Source: Pseudomonas sp. Fl4BN1 (GTDB lineage Bacteria; Pseudomonadota; Gammaproteobacteria; Pseudomonadales; Pseudomonadaceae). From it: a stretch of 64,000 bases of DNA. Within the stretch, counting starts at the first letter, position 1, and each line of letters opens with the position of its first letter. Below, one piece after another: positions 15,262 through 25,009 of the stretch. Both the position numbers and the translations under genes were made by a program. Below the pieces are notes generated by a model. It saw nothing but the letters and a program-made list of their open reading frames with translations, was not told the origin of the DNA and searched no databases. Where the stretch lies: assembly GCF_009908285.1 (NCBI RefSeq), contig NZ_JAAARM010000004.1:248001-312000 (forward strand), in the 5' to 3' direction.

Positions 15262-17517
15262 ATGCCATCCCAGCATCGCTGCCTGTGCGTTGCACTCCTA
15301 ATCGGTGCCGCAATGCTCTCGCCTTGGGCCATCGCCAACGCCGTGCTGGAAAACCTGCTCTGGCGCGTTGAAATCGACCCCGCGACGCTGGCAATCCAAG
15401 TAACACCGACACAGAGCCCGACCATACAAGCCTCCGCCGGGGTCAACGCACACACCGTCAACGACCTCGTTCAAACGCCCAGCCGGATCGACTGGCAATG
15501 GGACAACGGCGCCTGGGTGCTGAGCGCCAGCCTCGATCAACGCGATCTGTCGCTATCCATCACCGCCCGCGATCCCGGTGAACTAGGTTTCCTCAATCAA
15601 CCTGGTAGCGCCATGGGCAAAGGCTTGATCTGGCCATTGGCCGAGGGGCATTACGTGCCGGCGGGGGATGCGTTGTGGCAAGACTTTCTGCTCGATCAAG
15701 GTGAACTCAATACCACCCAGGATCTGAGCCTTCCGCTATGGGGCGTTGATCACGGCCGCTTCACCCTGAACTGGCTGCTGACCAACCCGTACAACAATCA
15801 CCTGACCTTCAGCACCGATGGTAAGGCCCTGGGGTTGGCAGCCCGTCATGAATTCACTTCGCTTGCGCCAGGCACACCGCTGACCTTCAAGTTATCGTTG
15901 GGCGATGCTAATCCGCTGTCGGGTGCCAAGCGCTATCGGCAATGGCTGAGAGACAACGGGCAATACGAATCCCTTGACGATAAATTTCTGAAAACCCCAG
16001 AGGCGAAAAAACTGCTGGGAGCCAGTCACGTGTATCTGTGGGGCAGCGACCTACTCGGACCGGATGATGTGCGCAGTTGGCCTGCGCTGTTGAAGCTGTT
16101 GCGGGGCAACGGTGCGTTGGTTAGCGAGTTGCGCGGCAGCTTTGATGCTGAAACTCGCAAGCTCCTGACCAAGGAGCAAGCAACGCTGGATCGCTATGAA
16201 CAAACCACCTTGCTGCGCAACCTAAATAGCGCGCTTAACACCAAGGCGCGGAGCGGTTGGCAGATGGTCGCCGAACCGGACATGCAAAAACTCGCCGAGG
16301 GTTATGGCCGATTGCGCACGCAAGTGGCAACAGTCTTCGACAAGGCGCTGACGGCCTCCCCAGAACGCTGGGGCAGCACGTTGACGCCAAAAACGTTCGA
16401 GCAGTTGCAAACCGCGGGGTTGTCACGCTTGTGGCTAGGCCTCGGCGAGGGTTGGGAGGGCGGACTCTGGCATCCCGAAGCGGTACGCCAAGGTGTGGCG
16501 GCCGGGTATCTGGTGGCGCCTTACGACTCTTACGAAACCGCGTTGAGCGCCACTGAAAACCCGGACTGGAGCACCGCGCACCTCGGCTCACGGGCCAACA
16601 CTGAGTGTGCGATTATCTTGAACGGCGGCGCGTTCAAAAGTGGTTTCCAGCAGTCCGGGCATTACACCGATCCACGTTGTGTGCGGCCATTACTTGAGGC
16701 CCGAATCAAAGCCGTGCAGGCCAAGGCCGGGTTCAATAGCTGGTTTCTCGACGCCTACGCCACAGGCATGGTATTTGACAGCTATCGTCTCAGCGCCTCC
16801 ATGACCCAAGCCCAAAACGCCGAGGGCAACATCGACGCCTCGCGCTGGCTGAACGAGACGCTGCGGTTGCCTGCTGGATCCGAGGATGGCAATGCCACCA
16901 CGGCCCGGGGCGTGCTGTTTGCCCATGGCATGCAGACACCGGTGATCGGCTGGGGGGATCCGGACATGAGCCAAAATCCCCAATCGCCCTATTACCTGGG
17001 GCGCTGGTTTCCCAACGAAAAACCTCAGGTGTTCTTCAAGGCCGTGCCGCTCAAGGAACCCTATCGCACCGTGCACTTTGCCCCACAGACGCGGTTGCCG
17101 CTGTATCAGGCGGTGTTCCACGGCTCGGTGATCACCACGCATCACTGGTTGTTCGACAGCCTGAAACTGAGCAACGTGCGAACCGAGAGTGAGCTGACTC
17201 AGTTGCTCTATAACGTGCCGCCGCTGTATCACCTGAGCGCCGACACATTGCAACAACGGTTACCGGCGATGGTTCGCCAGGATGGGTTTTTCCGGCCACT
17301 GCATGAGCGTCTGGCAACACAGGCAATGACGGATTTTCGGTGGTTGAGCGAAGATCGGCTGCTGCAGCAAACCACGTTTGCCGATGGGACACGGCTGGTG
17401 GCGAATTTTGATTCAGGTGAGCGTGAGGTGGAGGGACGGCGATTAGAAGGACAGAGCATCACGGCACTGGACGTTGGTGGAACTGCAGTGACTTATCAGA
17501 TAAATACACAGCGCTGA
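15262..17517 (+). CDS. Secreted glycoside hydrolase-like protein
   Basis: This large protein (751 residues) has a Sec signal peptide, MPSQHRCLCVALLIGAAMLS, ending near ANA. A beta-rich N-terminal domain of about 200 residues precedes an apparent TIM-barrel-like region with SWFLDAYATGMVFDSY, where the Asp sits like the nucleophile of GH101/GH129-related enzymes. A beta C-terminal domain follows (ITALDVGGTAVTYQINTQ). It resembles the GH101/GH129-like group I remember in pseudomonads, but the assignment is tentative and the substrate unknown. It is monocistronic, with GAAGGG before the ATG. Confidence 0.55.
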   Translation: MPSQHRCLCVALLIGAAMLSPWAIANAVLENLLWRVEIDPATLAIQVTPTQSPTIQASAGVNAHTVNDLVQTPSRIDWQWDNGAWVLSASLDQRDLSLSITARDPGELGFLNQPGSAMGKGLIWPLAEGHYVPAGDALWQDFLLDQGELNTTQDLSLPLWGVDHGRFTLNWLLTNPYNNHLTFSTDGKALGLAARHEFTSLAPGTPLTFKLSLGDANPLSGAKRYRQWLRDNGQYESLDDKFLKTPEAKKLLGASHVYLWGSDLLGPDDVRSWPALLKLLRGNGALVSELRGSFDAETRKLLTKEQATLDRYEQTTLLRNLNSALNTKARSGWQMVAEPDMQKLAEGYGRLRTQVATVFDKALTASPERWGSTLTPKTFEQLQTAGLSRLWLGLGEGWEGGLWHPEAVRQGVAAGYLVAPYDSYETALSATENPDWSTAHLGSRANTECAIILNGGAFKSGFQQSGHYTDPRCVRPLLEARIKAVQAKAGFNSWFLDAYATGMVFDSYRLSASMTQAQNAEGNIDASRWLNETLRLPAGSEDGNATTARGVLFAHGMQTPVIGWGDPDMSQNPQSPYYLGRWFPNEKPQVFFKAVPLKEPYRTVHFAPQTRLPLYQAVFHGSVITTHHWLFDSLKLSNVRTESELTQLLYNVPPLYHLSADTLQQRLPAMVRQDGFFRPLHERLATQAMTDFRWLSEDRLLQQTTFADGTRLVANFDSGEREVEGRRLEGQSITALDVGGTAVTYQINTQR

Positions 17518-17630
17518 ATGCCTGTTTACCAGGCATGGATCAGCGTTTAGAAAGAATGAGCTTTAGCTGCTCTAGGTTAAGCCGTTGACACTCAACTTCA
17601 TACACTTGATCCTTTGAGGCAGCACCACCC

Positions 17631-18317
17631 ATGATATTAAAACAAATCTATCTCTACCCTGACCTCGTAGAGTTTCACAATCGTGCAAAAGACACTTCCA
17701 TCATCAGGGATCAAACACGCCACATCTGCAACTATCTTGAACGACAACTTTCCTCATTGAAATTCAACTCTGAAAAATTCAATAAAATCTGCATCATAGG
17801 ATATAGCAATCCACAAAACGAAATGTATGTAGCATCCACGAACGCTCTTGCTGTGCCGATCGGCTTTGACATAGACCACTGCCGATCAACCCCTAAAGAG
17901 CTACTTGCCAGATATTACATAGACCTACTGATTGATGGACTAAAAAAAGCCTCATCAGCGTTTGACATCCCGCTTGACCACCTACTTGAATGGCTTGACG
18001 ACTTCAAAGCCGGTGGACTGCGCAACGAATGGGTATTTAAAGATAAAAATTTCCGCCACATTGGAATAAGATGCCGACTCGACTGTTCCATGACACTTGA
18101 CGAATTCAAACTCAAGCTACATGCATCCAAGAAAGAAAGAACTGTATTCGAGCGTGTGATTCTCATCACACCTCCAGACGAAGTGGCCTTCCATTACAGA
18201 TTTAAAGACATTCTCATTGAAGATGAAAAACTAGTCATCACAACAAGAATCAATACTGGAGGTGAGCGTATTTTATACTCGGCACCGCTATCAGAACTAC
18301 AATCCATGGCTGATTAA
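17631..18317 (+). CDS. Orphan AT-rich hypothetical protein, possibly an immunity protein
   Basis: The 228-residue soluble protein MILKQIYLYPDLVEFHNRAK is encoded with many A/T-ending codons, unlike its neighbours. It has no signal peptide, membrane segment or motif I recognise. It lies immediately upstream of Rhs core debris, and two further AT-rich genes follow. By position and composition it resembles the orphan toxin-immunity genes that collect beside Rhs loci. That role is inference only. Confidence 0.6.
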   Translation: MILKQIYLYPDLVEFHNRAKDTSIIRDQTRHICNYLERQLSSLKFNSEKFNKICIIGYSNPQNEMYVASTNALAVPIGFDIDHCRSTPKELLARYYIDLLIDGLKKASSAFDIPLDHLLEWLDDFKAGGLRNEWVFKDKNFRHIGIRCRLDCSMTLDEFKLKLHASKKERTVFERVILITPPDEVAFHYRFKDILIEDEKLVITTRINTGGERILYSAPLSELQSMAD

Positions 18318-18400
18318 TCATCTATTCTTTGTTCCTGCCGAAAGTCTTGACGACAGGGTCACCCTCAGCGAAAAATCAGCGCGAGCGGCACAATGTAACG

Positions 18401-18666
18401 GTTCCACTACCACAGTTGAACCCGCCTTATCCACGCCCAATCCTGGCAAGGCCTGCGCCTGCTCCAGGAACAACACGTCGACCGTCGCAGCCTCTACATC
18501 TACGAACCCGGTAGCTAAGCCCCACAGGCCCGCGTCGAGAACAACCCTGAACACACGAAGCAGGGAGGTTCACCACGCAGGATGCATGAAGTTGATGGGT
18601 GAGGATAATCCCTATCGGCATGCGCCGAATGCGCTGGGTTGGATTGGTCGGTGGGGAGAGCTGTAG
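18401..18666 (+). pseudogene. Decayed fragment of an Rhs-family core
   Basis: Two stretches of the Rhs core survive. At 18444-18540 the frame reads WQGLRLLQEQHVDRRSLYIY, then EPGS, a stop where Tyr is expected, and APQARVE. This matches the Rhs pattern WDGLRLLQE...SLYLYEPGSYAPLARVD. At 18604-18660 it reads DNPYRHAPNALGWIGRWGEL, matching the end of the core (NPY.YAPNPLGWIDPWGL) just before a toxin tip would begin. The stops and the missing segment show that it is non-functional. It explains the AT-rich orphan genes on both sides. Confidence 0.75.
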
Positions 18667-18825
18667 TTCTGCCTTGCAAGAAGTCTAGGTGGCGCATCAA
18701 GAGCTGTGCACAATGCTCAGCCTATTGTCATGTCTAACTCAATTGAATCCAAGACAGGGCCAGCCAAACCCCAAGAACAACGTAATAACGGAAAAACCCG
18801 TATTGCCGCGAAGCAAGGAATCGCA

Positions 18826-19455
18826 ATGAAAGATACTTTACAGTCATTATTTGAAGACAACAGAAACAAGTATCCAGACTTTTTAAAACGAACAAAGCAA
18901 GAATCAACATCAACCCAATGGGGAACCGGAGTAATGCCAGCCTATGACTTACTCCCTTACAATGCAGAGTTACTTGGCCACAAAGCAGGAAGAATGTTAA
19001 AAAAGGAGTCAGAACCGGGGAACAACAAACAGTGTTACCACCTAGAAAAGCATGGGGAAATAATTAGCGAAACAGAATATGCAGAATACAACTCAAGAGA
19101 GGGGTACTGGCTGGTCTATCAACGGTTTTTTATTTATCAGCCAGATCACGCAATTGAATTTGCCTTTGGCAGTTCCCGAGACAGCGACACAGAAGCCAAC
19201 CTGAATTTTGTGAAGTGGGCAAAGCTCGAAAATAGCACAACAACAAATTCATACCTTTTTAACCGCCGCGGCGAATACACAGAACTAGACTACAACTACC
19301 AAAACAACAAAATCACCACAATAAACCAAAGATCATGGCTAACAGATGAAATCATTGCACACCGACTCTATCAATTAAACCATGCCAGTAATGGAGTGAT
19401 TATTACCGAGATCCTGCCGGACGGGAGCATACATAAAATTTTTCCAAAAAAATAA
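18826..19455 (+). CDS. Orphan AT-rich protein, candidate Rhs immunity protein
   Basis: The start MKDTLQSLFEDNRNKYPDFL at 18826 has AAGGA upstream and gives 209 residues. An earlier in-frame ATG would add 40 low-complexity residues. It is soluble and acidic/polar, with low GC. The C-terminal half has a beta-strand repeat feel (SYLFNRRGEYTELDYNYQNN) reminiscent of Rhs or immunity folds. It begins 160 bases after the end of the Rhs core remnant, where an immunity gene normally lies. The function is inferred from position. Confidence 0.6.
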   Translation: MKDTLQSLFEDNRNKYPDFLKRTKQESTSTQWGTGVMPAYDLLPYNAELLGHKAGRMLKKESEPGNNKQCYHLEKHGEIISETEYAEYNSREGYWLVYQRFFIYQPDHAIEFAFGSSRDSDTEANLNFVKWAKLENSTTTNSYLFNRRGEYTELDYNYQNNKITTINQRSWLTDEIIAHRLYQLNHASNGVIITEILPDGSIHKIFPKK

Positions 19456-19559
19456 CCCTGGATCAGCGCGACCTGGACCACTATTCAATTAATCACTCGT
19501 AGGGCGCGCCTCTCGGGCCCAGCTATTGACCTGCACTTTTGCCATAGGAAACCTGAGCC

Positions 19560-19979
19560 GTGAGCAACTTAAATTTGTCGATCGTCAGTAAAATCGAGGT
19601 GGGCAACCTGCTAGAGAATCAAGGCAAGCCTCAGGAGGCACTAGAGATATACCTATCGACTTGGAAAGACATGGACGCATTGAAATCCGAAAAATACCAA
19701 ACAGAAGAAGCACGGCGGCTGATTAACTGCATTTACGAAGTGCATATTCAATTAGGCGATTATCAAACTGCAAAAAAATGGCCGGAAGATATTTTCAAAT
19801 GCAACATCCCTGACGCCGGAACCTCAGAACTGATAGATCTAAGAAAAATACACTTTGAGCTTGGCGAAGAAGATAAATCTTTTGAGTTTTTTCTAAAGGC
19901 ATATGAAAAAGGCAAGGATAGAGCCTTCAAGGAATACGCCCCTAAGTACCTTGCGTTTTTTGAAGCACATCAAAAATAG
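19560..19979 (+). CDS. Small TPR-like protein, orphan of the Rhs patch
   Basis: The start is a GTG (MSNLNLSIVSKIEVGNLLEN) after AGGAAA. The product has 139 residues of paired helices: NQGKPQEALEIYLSTWKDMD, EVHIQLGDYQTAKKWPED and FELGEEDKSFEFFLKAYEKG are three TPR-type helix pairs. Small TPR proteins of this size occur as cytoplasmic immunity or adaptor proteins next to polymorphic toxins. With the Rhs debris upstream and low GC, that is the best guess. Confidence 0.65.
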   Translation: MSNLNLSIVSKIEVGNLLENQGKPQEALEIYLSTWKDMDALKSEKYQTEEARRLINCIYEVHIQLGDYQTAKKWPEDIFKCNIPDAGTSELIDLRKIHFELGEEDKSFEFFLKAYEKGKDRAFKEYAPKYLAFFEAHQK

Positions 19980-21544: not shown

Positions 21545-21607
21545 TTAAGCGGCACGGATCAAATCCCAGCGCAGGCACCAGAAGCTCAGCGTTTCTTTAA
21601 CGGTCAT
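21545..21607 (-). CDS. Putative leader peptide upstream of aroP
   Basis: A 20-codon frame, MTVKETLSFWCLRWDLIRAA, begins 6 bases after AGGTGA, a strong ribosome-binding site, and ends 59 bases before the aroP ATG. It contains Phe-Trp-Cys and a second Trp, residues carried by the permease it precedes. This suggests translation-dependent control (attenuation, ribosome arrest or coupling) of aroP. No clear terminator hairpin is visible between leader and gene, so the mechanism is open. It is too short to be certain. Confidence 0.6.
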   Translation of the reverse strand: MTVKETLSFWCLRWDLIRAA

Positions 21608-21674
21608 GCGTCACCTGTTTGTTTTTATCTGTGACGAAATCGAACCCACCACGCTCGTGACGCGGCGGAGTGAA

Positions 21675-21691
21675 CAAGGTGGATAACCTTG
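21675..21691. repeat. Inverted repeat upstream of the aroP leader
   Basis: CAAGGT-GGATA-ACCTTG is a perfect 6-base dyad 68 bases before the leader ATG. It may be an operator or a hairpin in the 5' leader RNA. It does not match the TyrR/PhhR consensus. Confidence 0.45.
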
Positions 21692-22387
21692 AGTTTATTG
21701 GCCCGGCAGAGGTGTTTTCAGCAACGCGCAGACAAGCTGAAAACGGCTGCCCTGGCGCAAAATGCGCGGGTACGCAGTTGGGTCACAGTTAAAACGCCGC
21801 GCATTGTACACCCCTGACCCCCTGCCGCCAGACACCGCTGTTTCAGCGTGCCGGTAACCGGGATCTCATGGGGCCAGCTCGATGCTCGGCATCGACGGCG
21901 GAAAGTTGGACGGGCCGCGTGCGGTCGTCAATGAAGGTGCGATGACCATCGCCCTTCGAAGGGTGTCGGTGAAAGTCGGTTACGGCGTTCATTGCGCCTC
22001 CTTCTTGTTATGCACCTGTACGCAGGCAGGTGTGCATCACACCTGCCTTGGCGCCCCGGAACAAGCGGACCAGAGCCTTGCAGGCCGAATTATCCAGCGC
22101 CTTTCGGAAGCTTTTCCTTACAGCTCGCCAAGCACTACGCATTCAGTGCCCAGAACGCCCGATTCCGTAATGATTTCTTTACAGTGCGTAACATAAAATT
22201 GCCAAAACAGATCCACTCAACGACAGACTACAAATTGACGCCGACCACTCCAATGCGAGCGCAAAGCCTTAGCTTTTTGTTTTCCGGCAATAAATTTTCC
22301 AGCATCAAAATAGAAAATAAAGTTCAGTAGAAAATAATCTAATTATTTTTTTGCACTTCAAAATGCCCTGGACTAGGTTTCCAGCCA

Positions 22388-22412
22388 CTTGCCGGATCCA
22401 ATATCCGGCAAG
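22388..22412. repeat. 10-base perfect hairpin upstream of the peptide gene
   Basis: CTTGCCGGAT-N5-ATCCGGCAAG could fold into a stable stem about 100 bases before the peptide ATG. There is no U-run, so it is more likely an operator, a 5' RNA stabiliser or a REP-like element than a terminator. Confidence 0.5.
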
Positions 22413-22512
22413 CCCGAGGAACGGCTGACAGCACTCGCAACCATCCCGTTCGCCGCTGTTGATCTGTTCCGCCAATGGACTGCAATGCGCAATGTCATCT
22501 AGGAGAGTCACC

Positions 22513-22650
22513 ATGCAAACACTGGAACAAGACCTGGAAACCGAGCTGCAACTGGACGATTGGTTCGAAGTGACAACCCATGATGCCGCAGTGGAAATGA
22601 TGCAGGCTGACGCGGTGGTTCCGTTCGGCACGGCGATGTGGCCGATGTAA
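22513..22650 (+). CDS. Acidic 45-residue peptide, candidate RiPP-like precursor
   Basis: The frame begins MQTLEQDLETELQLDDWFEV after AGGAGAGTCACC, an excellent ribosome-binding site, and ends AVVPFGTAMWPM. It has ten Asp/Glu, one His and no Lys or Arg. The charged helical N-terminal part resembles a leader peptide, and the C-terminal dozen (Pro, Phe, Gly, Thr, Met, Trp, Pro, Met) resembles a core that an enzyme could modify. A terminator-like hairpin follows at once, then an M29/NicX-like enzyme gene. No signal peptide is present. I do not recognise a named family, and the precursor role is inferred. Confidence 0.65.
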   Translation: MQTLEQDLETELQLDDWFEVTTHDAAVEMMQADAVVPFGTAMWPM

Positions 22651-22658
22651 GGCGCCCG

Positions 22659-22695
22659 GACCGGAGCAGGCCCAGCGCCTGCCCCGGTCATTTTT
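22659..22695 (+). terminator. Terminator/attenuator between peptide and enzyme genes
   Basis: GACCGG-A-GCAGGC pairs with GCCTGC-C-CCGGTC (12 pairs, one A/C mismatch, 5-base loop) and is followed by ATTTTTGT. It starts 9 bases after the peptide stop and ends 18 bases before the enzyme start. Partial termination here would give far more peptide mRNA than enzyme mRNA, as in many precursor-peptide operons. Confidence 0.8.
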
Positions 22696-22713
22696 GTCCT
22701 CCAGGGAGGTTTT

Positions 22714-23679
22714 ATGGACCAGACCCGCGCCATCCGCCATTTCCTGTACTACCTCGAACGTCACCCGGCCCTGAGCAACACCCAGCCATCGAAGGTAGTG
22801 ATCGGCCATACCGCCGAGTATCAGGCCATGAGCCGCGCCATCATCGAACAATCCCGCCAGTCCACGCCACTGGCGGTCAGCGCCCTGCGCCTTGATCTGG
22901 AGCCTGCCGAGAGCCTGGCCCAGGCAATTATCGACTGTGACCTGTACATCTTTTTCTATGACTCCTCGACCCTGCCTCAGCCGCGCCCAGATGGCCCGGA
23001 ATTTCTCCGACCGCTGCATGGGCTGATGGCCGAGCACTGGAAAAAATCCCTATTGTTCAAGGATTACGGCGAGTACTTCTACGATACCTTCAGCATCGAG
23101 CCGCAGCGGATCGCCGACCTCAATGCGACCCTGATCCGGCGCTTGTCCCAGGCCGGCACCCTGAGTTTCAGCGACCCTCAGGGCTCGTATTTCGAAGCAC
23201 CACTCAATAGCGTGAAGAAGTGGACCGACATCAACGGCGTGGGCAATTACGACCTGGCGCCAGGTGAAATCGCCACCCACAGCGAGGCGATCAATGGCCA
23301 TGTACGATTTCTCGGCACCTTCCTCAGCACCATTCCGTTTGCCCGCAAGTACGGGGTGCTGCAAACGCCACTGGAGCTGTGGATCGAGAATTCGAGCATC
23401 CGCCAGGTGGCGACCGAAGTCCCTGGACTGGCCACTGATTTCAACAAGTACCTGGATGCCAACCCGTCGAATCGGCGCATCGAGGAGCTGGGGATCGGCA
23501 CCAACGAGGGCATCAAGTCCTTGTATGGACGCAACTCCGGTTTTGAAGAGCGTCACTGCGGCCTGCACCTCGGCCTGGGCGGTGGAGCCAAGGGCAGCCA
23601 TCATCTGGACCTGATCTTCAGCGCCGGGGTACTGGCGGTGGACAACAAGCCAGTGTTCGACGGCCAGTTCGCCTTCTAG
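22714..23679 (+). CDS. M29/NicX-like metalloenzyme paired with the acidic peptide
   Basis: The protein has 321 residues and no signal peptide, and is preceded by CAGGGAGG. The C-terminal half carries the pattern of metal-dependent M29 aminopeptidases and the related 2,5-dihydroxypyridine dioxygenase NicX: GEIATHSE (Glu185), GIGTNEGIKSLYGRN, then FEERHCGLHLGLGG (Glu278 or Glu279, His285) and SHHLDLIF (His297, Asp299). These are probable metal ligands. The N-terminal half (IRHFLYYLERHPALSN) is not one I recognise. It could be a peptidase acting on the peptide, an oxygenase modifying it, or unrelated. The gene order favours a functional pair. Confidence 0.7.
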   Translation: MDQTRAIRHFLYYLERHPALSNTQPSKVVIGHTAEYQAMSRAIIEQSRQSTPLAVSALRLDLEPAESLAQAIIDCDLYIFFYDSSTLPQPRPDGPEFLRPLHGLMAEHWKKSLLFKDYGEYFYDTFSIEPQRIADLNATLIRRLSQAGTLSFSDPQGSYFEAPLNSVKKWTDINGVGNYDLAPGEIATHSEAINGHVRFLGTFLSTIPFARKYGVLQTPLELWIENSSIRQVATEVPGLATDFNKYLDANPSNRRIEELGIGTNEGIKSLYGRNSGFEERHCGLHLGLGGGAKGSHHLDLIFSAGVLAVDNKPVFDGQFAF

Positions 23680-23733
23680 CCTCCGCGGTCAGAGCCGGTC
23701 GCCGGCGAAAGCAGTCCGCAGTCCTGCTGACTA

Positions 23734-23756
23734 TTCATCGGCAAGCCGGCTCCTAC
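23734..23756. repeat. Single REP sequence
   Basis: TTCATCGGCAAGCCGGCTCCTAC is of the Pseudomonas REP type, lying between the enzyme gene and the rluB terminator. Confidence 0.7.
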
Positions 23757-23768
23757 GAACCACCAGGC

Positions 23769-23799
23769 AAAAAAAAACGCCAACCCGTGGGTTGGCGTT
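23769..23799 (-). terminator. Rho-independent terminator of rluB
   Basis: On the minus strand the stem AACGCCAACC/GGTTGGCGTT with a 4-base loop is followed by a U-run (nine A on the plus strand), about 20 bases after the rluB stop. Confidence 0.9.
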
Positions 23800-23818
23800 C
23801 TTGTGCACCGACCGGGAT

Positions 23819-25009
23819 TTACTCCGGCTTGCGGCGACCAAAGCCAGGACGCTGGCCGCTACCGGCTGGAGCGCCGCGACGCTTGCCGGATGGCGCATCC
23901 TTGTCCAGCACCAGGCTTGGACGCTTGGACTTCGGCGCCGGCTTGGCCGGGCGCTTGGTGTCCGCCGGACGATCGGCCACTGGCGTGCCACGACCGGTTG
24001 CCGGCCGCGGTGCACGTGACCCGCGCTCGCCGTCCTGACGGGCCGCAGGCTTGCGCCCTGGGCGCTCGCCTTCGATCTGCGGCTCACGGGGGGCACGCGA
24101 TGTGGTTGGGGTGCCGTTGGCCGGACGCAGGGTGCGCACACGCTCGCTCTTGCCCACTGGACGCGAAGATTTACGCTGCATGCGCTCCAGCTTGTCCTTG
24201 GACTTGGCGTTGAGTTGCGGCATCGCCACAGGAGTCAAGCCAACCTCAGCACTGAGGATGTCGACTTCGTACTGGCTCATTTCGCGCCAGCGGCCCATGG
24301 GCAGGTCGGAGTTGAGGAATACCGGGCCGAAGCGCACGCGCTTCAGGCGGCTGACCACCAGGCCCTGGGACTCCCACAGGCGACGTACTTCACGGTTACG
24401 ACCTTCCATCACCACGCAGTGGTACCAGTGGTTGAAACCTTCGCCACCGGGCGCCTGCTTGATGTCGGTGAACTTGGCCGGGCCGTCTTCGAGCATGACG
24501 CCAGCCTTGAGGCGCTCAATCATCTCGTCGTCGACTTCACCACGCACGCGCACGGCGTACTCACGGTCCATTTCATAGGACGGGTGCATCAGGCGGTTGG
24601 CCAACTCACCGTCGGTGGTGAACATCAGCAAACCGGTGGTGTTGATGTCCAGGCGGCCGATATTGATCCAGCGGCCTTCTTTCGGGCGCGGCAGCTTGTC
24701 GAACACGGTCGGACGGCCTTCCGGGTCGTCACGGGTGCAGATCTCGCCGTCGGGCTTGTTGTACATGATCACGCGGCGTACCGATTCGGCAGCCTCTTCG
24801 CGCTTGATCACCTTGCCATCGATGGAAATCGCGTCATGCAGGTCGACGCGCAGGCCCAGGGTGGCCTCTTTGCCGTTGACCTTGATGCGGCCCTGGCTGA
24901 TCCAGGACTCGACGTCGCGGCGCGAGCCGACGCCGATGCGGGCGAGGACTTTCTGCAGTTTCTCGCCGGCTGGACGGATTTCCTGGTCGTTCTGATCGGT
25001 ATCGCTCAT
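23819..25009 (-). CDS. rluB: 23S rRNA pseudouridine synthase RluB
   Basis: RluB converts U2605 of 23S rRNA to pseudouridine. An S4 RNA-binding domain (residues 17-75, LQKVLARIGVGSRRDVESWI) precedes the catalytic domain with IGRLDINTTGLLMFT, where Asp121 is the nucleophile. Residues from about 275 to 396 form a basic, Arg/Pro/Gly-rich, apparently disordered tail that E. coli RluB has only in shorter form. It is probably the last gene of the scpA-scpB-rluB cluster, with a REPIN between scpB and its start. A terminator follows. Confidence 0.95.
   Translation of the reverse strand: MSDTDQNDQEIRPAGEKLQKVLARIGVGSRRDVESWISQGRIKVNGKEATLGLRVDLHDAISIDGKVIKREEAAESVRRVIMYNKPDGEICTRDDPEGRPTVFDKLPRPKEGRWINIGRLDINTTGLLMFTTDGELANRLMHPSYEMDREYAVRVRGEVDDEMIERLKAGVMLEDGPAKFTDIKQAPGGEGFNHWYHCVVMEGRNREVRRLWESQGLVVSRLKRVRFGPVFLNSDLPMGRWREMSQYEVDILSAEVGLTPVAMPQLNAKSKDKLERMQRKSSRPVGKSERVRTLRPANGTPTTSRAPREPQIEGERPGRKPAARQDGERGSRAPRPATGRGTPVADRPADTKRPAKPAPKSKRPSLVLDKDAPSGKRRGAPAGSGQRPGFGRRKPE

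Follow-up and report, generated by a model that had tools for sequence, protein, structure and literature searches.

In crocagin biosynthesis, CgnB and CgnE were found to bind the precursor CgnA; CgnB holds metals and is thought to be the catalytic protein, and CgnE recruits. Members of this family that occur as single copies have intact metal sites, putative precursors for them were found by RiPPER, and contigs with two copies are much rarer than those with one (PMC10070186, as far as its available text goes). Crocagin is merely mentioned in the accessible parts of PMC12710340, PMC13174530 and PMC10885120, and the titles and abstract beginnings listed by literature searches gave nothing on the present pair besides PMC10070186, whose RiPPER peptide supplement may already list the peptide described here. 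The present study concerns such a solitary copy in Pseudomonas sp. Fl4BN1, at positions 22513 to 23679 of a stretch of 64,000 nucleotides (the window; positions 248,001 to 312,000 of contig NZ_JAAARM010000004.1), where a gene for a 45-residue acidic peptide is followed by a gene for a 321-residue protein. The enzyme is assigned to the family of CgnB and CgnE by way of the label on close relatives, is present as a solitary copy and has its metal site intact. With a probability of roughly 0.7, the two genes form a minimal pair of the type of the ribosomally synthesized and post-translationally modified peptides (RiPPs), in which the peptide is the likely precursor and the CgnB/CgnE-family protein would bind its acidic leader and modify the C-terminal AVVPFGTAMWPM, most likely around the tryptophan. 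A preliminary description, made from the sequence alone, had read the locus as a precursor peptide with a tailoring enzyme, and this interpretation is partly supported. The features which carry the argument are:

22513..22650, + strand: gene of the 45-residue precursor-like peptide, MQTLEQDLETELQLDDWFEVTTHDAAVEMMQADAVVPFGTAMWPM (open reading frame (ORF), occurrence across genomes, ratio of nonsynonymous to synonymous substitution (dN/dS))
22597..22647, + strand: near-invariant C-terminal segment, codons 29-45 (MMQADAVVPFGTAMWPM), the presumed core (dN/dS, comparison of lineages)
22714..23679, + strand: 321-residue CgnB/CgnE-family protein with an M29/NicX fold in the model and intact metal residues (sequence, alignment, model)

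The 45-codon ORF is a real gene, because codons 29-44 (MMQADAVVPFGTAMWP) have a dN/dS of only 0.005 over 143 distinct Pseudomonas copies. These copies derive from 211 Pseudomonas locus records, which reduced to 148 distinct peptide genes, 143 with 45 codons and five with 44; the former were compared in register and the latter left out. In this set the ratio is 0.087 for the whole peptide, 0.336 for codons 1-11 and 0.053 for codons 12-28, and 25 of the 45 positions never vary. Position 45 is occupied by L (88 genes), F (45), M (9) or V (1). The peptide of the window carries 10 Asp/Glu, no Lys or Arg and no Tyr. Relatives in other lineages share A-V-[VI]-P-x-[GA]-T-[AS]-[ML]-W, and in three Pseudomonas loci (L114, L119 and L120) P37 is replaced by A, the peptide there being AVVAFGTAMWPF. 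A short, ribosomally encoded precursor under selection on its amino acids, as is expected of a RiPP, is what these ratios describe.

The peptide and the enzyme are found together. An enzyme match, fragments included, is present in 143 of 398 Pseudomonas genomes, and a separate peptide search, taken to cover the genomes G000-G297, located the peptide in 105 of 298 genomes, all 105 of which have the enzyme gene (in G216, locus L113, with its frame broken near the end). The other two enzyme-positive genomes of this range, G034 and G250, hold only fragments of the enzyme and no peptide. At the level of loci, 210 of the 221 with an enzyme match have a peptide of the strict motif upstream, and the remaining 11 comprise the three P37A-type loci, L220, where the enzyme stands at the end of a contig, L214 and L215, which show one broken copy twice, the partial genes L121 and L124, and L122, L123 and L222, distant relatives with 27-29% identity. 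The peptide thus lies upstream in all 211 Pseudomonas records whose enzyme gene is complete or almost so, some genomes being present in both collections, and it adjoins the enzyme in every full-length locus with both flanks readable. Decayed, truncated or frame-broken enzyme copies were seen at L121 (G250), L124 (G034), L260 (G424) and L113. Distant relatives (L122, L123 and L261, from two Pseudomonas and one distant genome) share approximately 27-31% identity over the C-terminal part, and no PFGTA-type peptide was recognised beside them by the motifs used.

Outside Pseudomonas, lineages were labelled by the nearest named protein, Burkholderia-like by P0068 (Burkholderia ubonensis) and Xenorhabdus-like by P0062 (Xenorhabdus szentirmaii). 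The enzyme is present in 51 of 65 Burkholderia-like genomes and the peptide stands upstream in all 30 loci returned, as well as in the further loci L256 and L276-L286. The same order is found in Piscirickettsia (L213/L255, identical to P0047) and in L258, from an enterobacterial genome of another genus of the Xenorhabdus-like family. Among the Xenorhabdus-like genomes 9 of 30 have the enzyme, and eight loci are readable; the peptide gene is upstream in three of these (L269, L270 and L275) and downstream on the same strand in five (L257 and L271-L274). In a further one, L259, no peptide occurs in the 1.5 kb before the enzyme, and the contig stops right behind it. Since the gene order is swapped in these five Xenorhabdus-like loci, the peptide probably acts as a product and not as a leader in cis. 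A plasmid search with P0104 matched three large Burkholderia replicons, with no annotated features under the match, and relatives of the enzyme are also listed from Chromobacterium, Photorhabdus, Vibrio and Aeromonas. This linkage and co-occurrence supply the neighbouring gene that a RiPP calls for, whose product would act on the peptide.

Much of the preliminary description agrees with these results. The 45-residue, very acidic peptide gene with a strong ribosome-binding site is there (ORF 22513-22650, with AGGAGA 5' of its ATG), and its C-terminus is indeed the most conserved part. A peptide frame lacking amino-acid conservation, or an enzyme without the peptide in most genomes, had been named as counter-evidence; the overall dN/dS shows the contrary of the former, and 105 peptide-bearing genomes stand against two with enzyme fragments alone for the latter. 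The expectation that the peptide always lies just before the enzyme holds for the Pseudomonas records and fails in the five Xenorhabdus-like loci.

The family label PF26231 (CgnB/CgnE) sits on P0001, a relative with 93% identity to the enzyme; searches of the peptide and the enzyme against NCBIfam and a Pfam version without PF26231 gave no family at E values up to 10. Glu185, Glu278, Glu279, His285, His297 and Asp299 are invariant in an alignment of 79 sequences, which is the intact metal site expected of single-copy members of PF26231, and the predicted model has the M29/NicX/CgnB fold with metal ligands of the M29 type. The metal-site motifs noticed earlier are thereby confirmed. The statement that no described pathway has this pair has to be corrected, because the protein family is already published with crocagin (PMC10070186, in its available text). 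Both protein and profile searches found a single enzyme match in the own genome.

The pair fits the solitary class, with a conserved leader, a frozen C-terminal Trp segment and one metal-intact protein, and for this reason a RiPP-type precursor with its modifying protein is the preferred reading. One promoter near 22351-22379 would give a single transcript of both genes, and the hairpin after the peptide stop may lower the enzyme output relative to the peptide, either by partial termination or by protection of the upstream RNA. The enzyme would recognise the conserved LQLDDWF..TH.AAVE region of the leader, and the peptide C-terminus may be held at a Zn/Fe-type metal centre formed by Glu185, Glu279, His285, His297 and Asp299. 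Dehydration, cyclisation or oxidation of the Pro-Phe-Gly-Thr-Ala-Met-Trp-Pro run would be the probable action. As neither was recognised beside the pair, the product would be finished and released by a general peptidase and, if there is one, an exporter encoded elsewhere. The control elements on which this scheme draws are:

22351..22379, + strand: predicted promoter-like block, TTGCAC-17 nt-TAGGTT (aligned Pseudomonas loci)
22388..22412, + strand: palindrome CTTGCCGGAT-CCAAT-ATCCGGCAAG, 10 pairs, between the promoter-like block and the peptide gene (aligned loci)
22501..22506, + strand: ribosome-binding site AGGAGA of the peptide gene (found in 30 of 30 aligned loci)
22659..22689, + strand: intergenic hairpin GACCGG...CCGGTC, 12 pairs with one mismatch (folding, spacer shuffles, covariation)
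22703..22709, + strand: ribosome-binding site AGGGAGG of the enzyme gene (sequence)

The intergenic hairpin looks to be under selection. It is followed in the window by ATTTTTG at 22690-22696, and the 43 bases from 22658 to 22700 fold with -24.4 kcal/mol (z -4.75, none of 200 shuffles equally stable), the longer stretch 22645-22720 being less striking (z -1.57, 11 of 200). Across the family, 177 of 186 distinct spacers contain a hairpin that surpasses their dinucleotide shuffles (no more than 1 in 60 as good), and because of this together with the strong amino-acid constraint the arrangement is not a matter of chance. Covariation was analysed on all hairpins of 31 bases but that of L120 (44 of 45), which had been preselected for pairing, a choice that favours structure. 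In these 44 distinct hairpins pairing holds in 96% of the pair cells, and 69 cells carry a change on both sides, a number reached by none of 500 shuffles (mean 17.9), with slid structures giving 2-14. Four of five covariation measures lie above the shuffles; the number of pairs with a two-sided change, eight against 7.1 (181 of 500 shuffles as high), shows no excess. At least five T within the 9 bases 3' of the stem occur in 61 of the 186 distinct spacers, as compared to 2.8% of shuffles, and 125 have fewer. Hence the terminator or attenuator character proposed in the preliminary description would be lineage-dependent and fit some lineages only: the 12-pair hairpin with its T-run in the window and the generality of the hairpin stand, whereas the U-run is limited to these 61 spacers and the peptide can also follow the enzyme. 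A plain terminator scan did not list 22659-22689, apparently owing to the mismatch in its stem and to the A that precedes the T-run, and Rfam gave no match on 21600-24000.

Upstream, the promoter-like block has just three of six sigma-70 consensus letters in each hexamer and is thus a poor match; in 30 chosen Pseudomonas loci its columns TTG and CTA are invariant and the neighbouring ones nearly so. A consensus promoter scan did not list it and gave another site, 22311-22338, instead. The palindrome at 22388-22412 may serve as an operator or form a stem in the RNA; in 18 of the 30 aligned loci its stretch has a stem of at least seven unbroken pairs.

Several facts weigh against a modified precursor. 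The last peptide residue is variable (L/F/M/V) and is absent in some lineages. Near-total conservation of the core is unusual in RiPPs made for warfare. The family is rare outside a few genera, being found in 3 of 369 genomes of a class sample and 8 of 398 of a phylum sample (own genome in both). Smaller samples, taken to look for more lineages, gave 1 of 250 genomes in one order (the centre of the sample itself), 3 of 119 in one family and 1 of 3 in another. The Pfam scan of flanking ORFs in the window recognised no protease or exporter and no oxygenase or further copy beside the pair, and CgnB itself shows no significant sequence similarity (E 1.2 with a 27-row profile, absent from the list of a 79-row profile). 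In the model of a read-through peptide-enzyme fusion, the enzyme part is confident whereas the peptide has a predicted local distance difference test (pLDDT) score of about 30 and is not placed on the enzyme. Formation of the crocagin core needs CgnC in addition to CgnB and CgnE.

The same fold and metal residues would also suit a dedicated M29-fold metallopeptidase which releases a short conserved C-terminal signal, for example a PFGTAMWP peptide; the public name of the enzyme, leucyl aminopeptidase, and the lack of a recognised adjacent protease point in this direction. Such processing is unlikely, since the strongest constraint of the peptide is C-terminal whereas M29 enzymes act at N-termini, the Pfam Peptidase_M29 model gives no match, and in the available text of PMC10070186 no aminopeptidase activity was observed for CgnB or CgnE. 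The strict co-occurrence with a single partner and the conservation that reaches residues 12-28 could mark the peptide as a small stable subunit of the metalloprotein, or as its chaperone or inhibitor, that is never modified. This is highly improbable, as constraint peaks at a hydrophobic C-terminus whose last residue varies, substrate peptides are bound by CgnB-family proteins (PMC10070186, available text), and the fused model, as weak evidence, shows no confident peptide contact or fold. The least probable of the alternatives considered is a regulatory leader in cis, where translation of the ..TAMWPM end would pause the ribosome and so determine how much transcription passes the hairpin to reach the enzyme gene. 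TnaC-like arrest peptides are a precedent for pausing at a peptide end, the W-P-x-stop lies just ahead of the hairpin with its U-run in the window, and the hairpin is widely kept with covarying pair cells; against this, the peptide gene follows the enzyme in five of eight readable Xenorhabdus-like loci, 125 of the 186 distinct spacers are without five T past the stem, and residues 12-28 are strongly constrained too.

In Pfam terms, the pair is flanked by an amino-acid permease on one side and by an RluB-type pseudouridine synthase, ScpB and ScpA on the other. Among the 80 named Pseudomonas records retained from 230 candidates, the same permease is upstream in 78, both misses being contig ends, and RluB is downstream in 75, with four misses at contig ends and a real one at L149. 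The pair thus has a fixed chromosomal place in Pseudomonas, for which vertical inheritance is the simplest explanation. The flank scan comprised eight ORFs between 15262 and 27207, two of them without a Pfam match, and it recognised no adjacent exporter or protease. No 2-oxoglutarate (2OG) dioxygenase of the CgnC type was among these eight, unlinked copies elsewhere in the genome not having been searched for. A GH129-type glycosyl hydrolase (751 aa) and, after it, three small ORFs of 228, 249 and 139 aa occupy 15262-19979; the 228- and 249-aa ORFs have no Pfam match, the 139-aa ORF has weak tetratricopeptide repeat (TPR) matches, and the ORFs of this part look lineage-specific.

In the P0104-type sub-family of the enzyme (L258 and L276-L280) the peptide ends in AVIPFATALWA, and a protein of about 475 residues with weak TPR and glycosyltransferase-9 (GT9) matches directly follows the enzyme (L258 9061-11434; L276-L280). 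In L258 a 2OG-Fe(II) oxygenase match, the only one found, comes after the TPR/GT9-like protein. All these matches are below the Pfam cut-offs, and among the P0104-type loci the L258 proteins alone were scanned. Of all the loci, those of this sub-family come nearest to suggesting additional steps. A search of the own genome for the TPR/GT9-like protein, made without a control in that genome, found no relative.

Going further, it is possible, though only tentatively suggested, that the fixed AVVPFGTA(M/L)WP end is converted by a solitary CgnB-type metalloprotein to a single Trp-based small molecule, identical in Pseudomonas, Burkholderia, Xenorhabdus and Piscirickettsia, as a two-gene, oxygenase-free RiPP. 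Because of the frozen core and the fixed chromosomal place in Pseudomonas, the product would then be of a housekeeping nature (cofactor, metal ligand or signal) and not a weapon. The pair, from a soil Pseudomonas, narrows the role of a single CgnB-type protein without the CgnC oxygenase and the CgnE twin to a question of one enzyme gene and one peptide gene, the peptide being a clear candidate for the substrate. Should the peptide be modified, small molecules of one class and of nearly fixed structure would come from about one third of the sampled Pseudomonas species and several other proteobacteria, and the proteins now called 'leucyl aminopeptidase' would be misnamed.

The comparison with known systems shows considerable differences. 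The pair is not a crocagin cluster, because a second copy, a neighbouring CgnC-type gene and a Tyr-Trp core are all missing and the leader is acidic. Crocagin has two CgnB/E copies within 2.1 kb, one with a broken metal site, a basic leader and a conserved C-terminal Tyr-Trp, whereas here one enzyme copy is present, the core ends in FGTAMWPM, and no CgnC-, CgnD- or CgnL-type gene was recognised next to the pair. The M29 aminopeptidases AmpT (2ayi), AmpS (1zjc) and PepS (4icr/4icq/4ics) are alike in fold and metal ligands in the predicted model; they share 11-15% identity over the aligned residues and have 397-413 residues against 321, and the present enzyme differs by having no Pfam M29 match and by its genetic tie to one peptide. 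The closest fold by Z (22.9) is that of the 2,5-dihydroxypyridine dioxygenase NicX (7cn3), with similar length and 17% identity. NicX opens the pyridine ring in nicotinate breakdown, unlike the peptide-linked enzyme described here, and we know of no peptide partner for it; enzymes of its type bind Fe through two His and one Asp. PqqA and MftA, the precursors of pyrroloquinoline quinone (PQQ) and mycofactocin, are also short, with a core nearly fixed across distant bacteria, and are served by radical S-adenosylmethionine (radical-SAM) and partner enzymes. The present peptide resembles them in its shortness and its nearly fixed core, and the difference lies in the enzyme, a CgnB-type protein here and a radical-SAM enzyme there.
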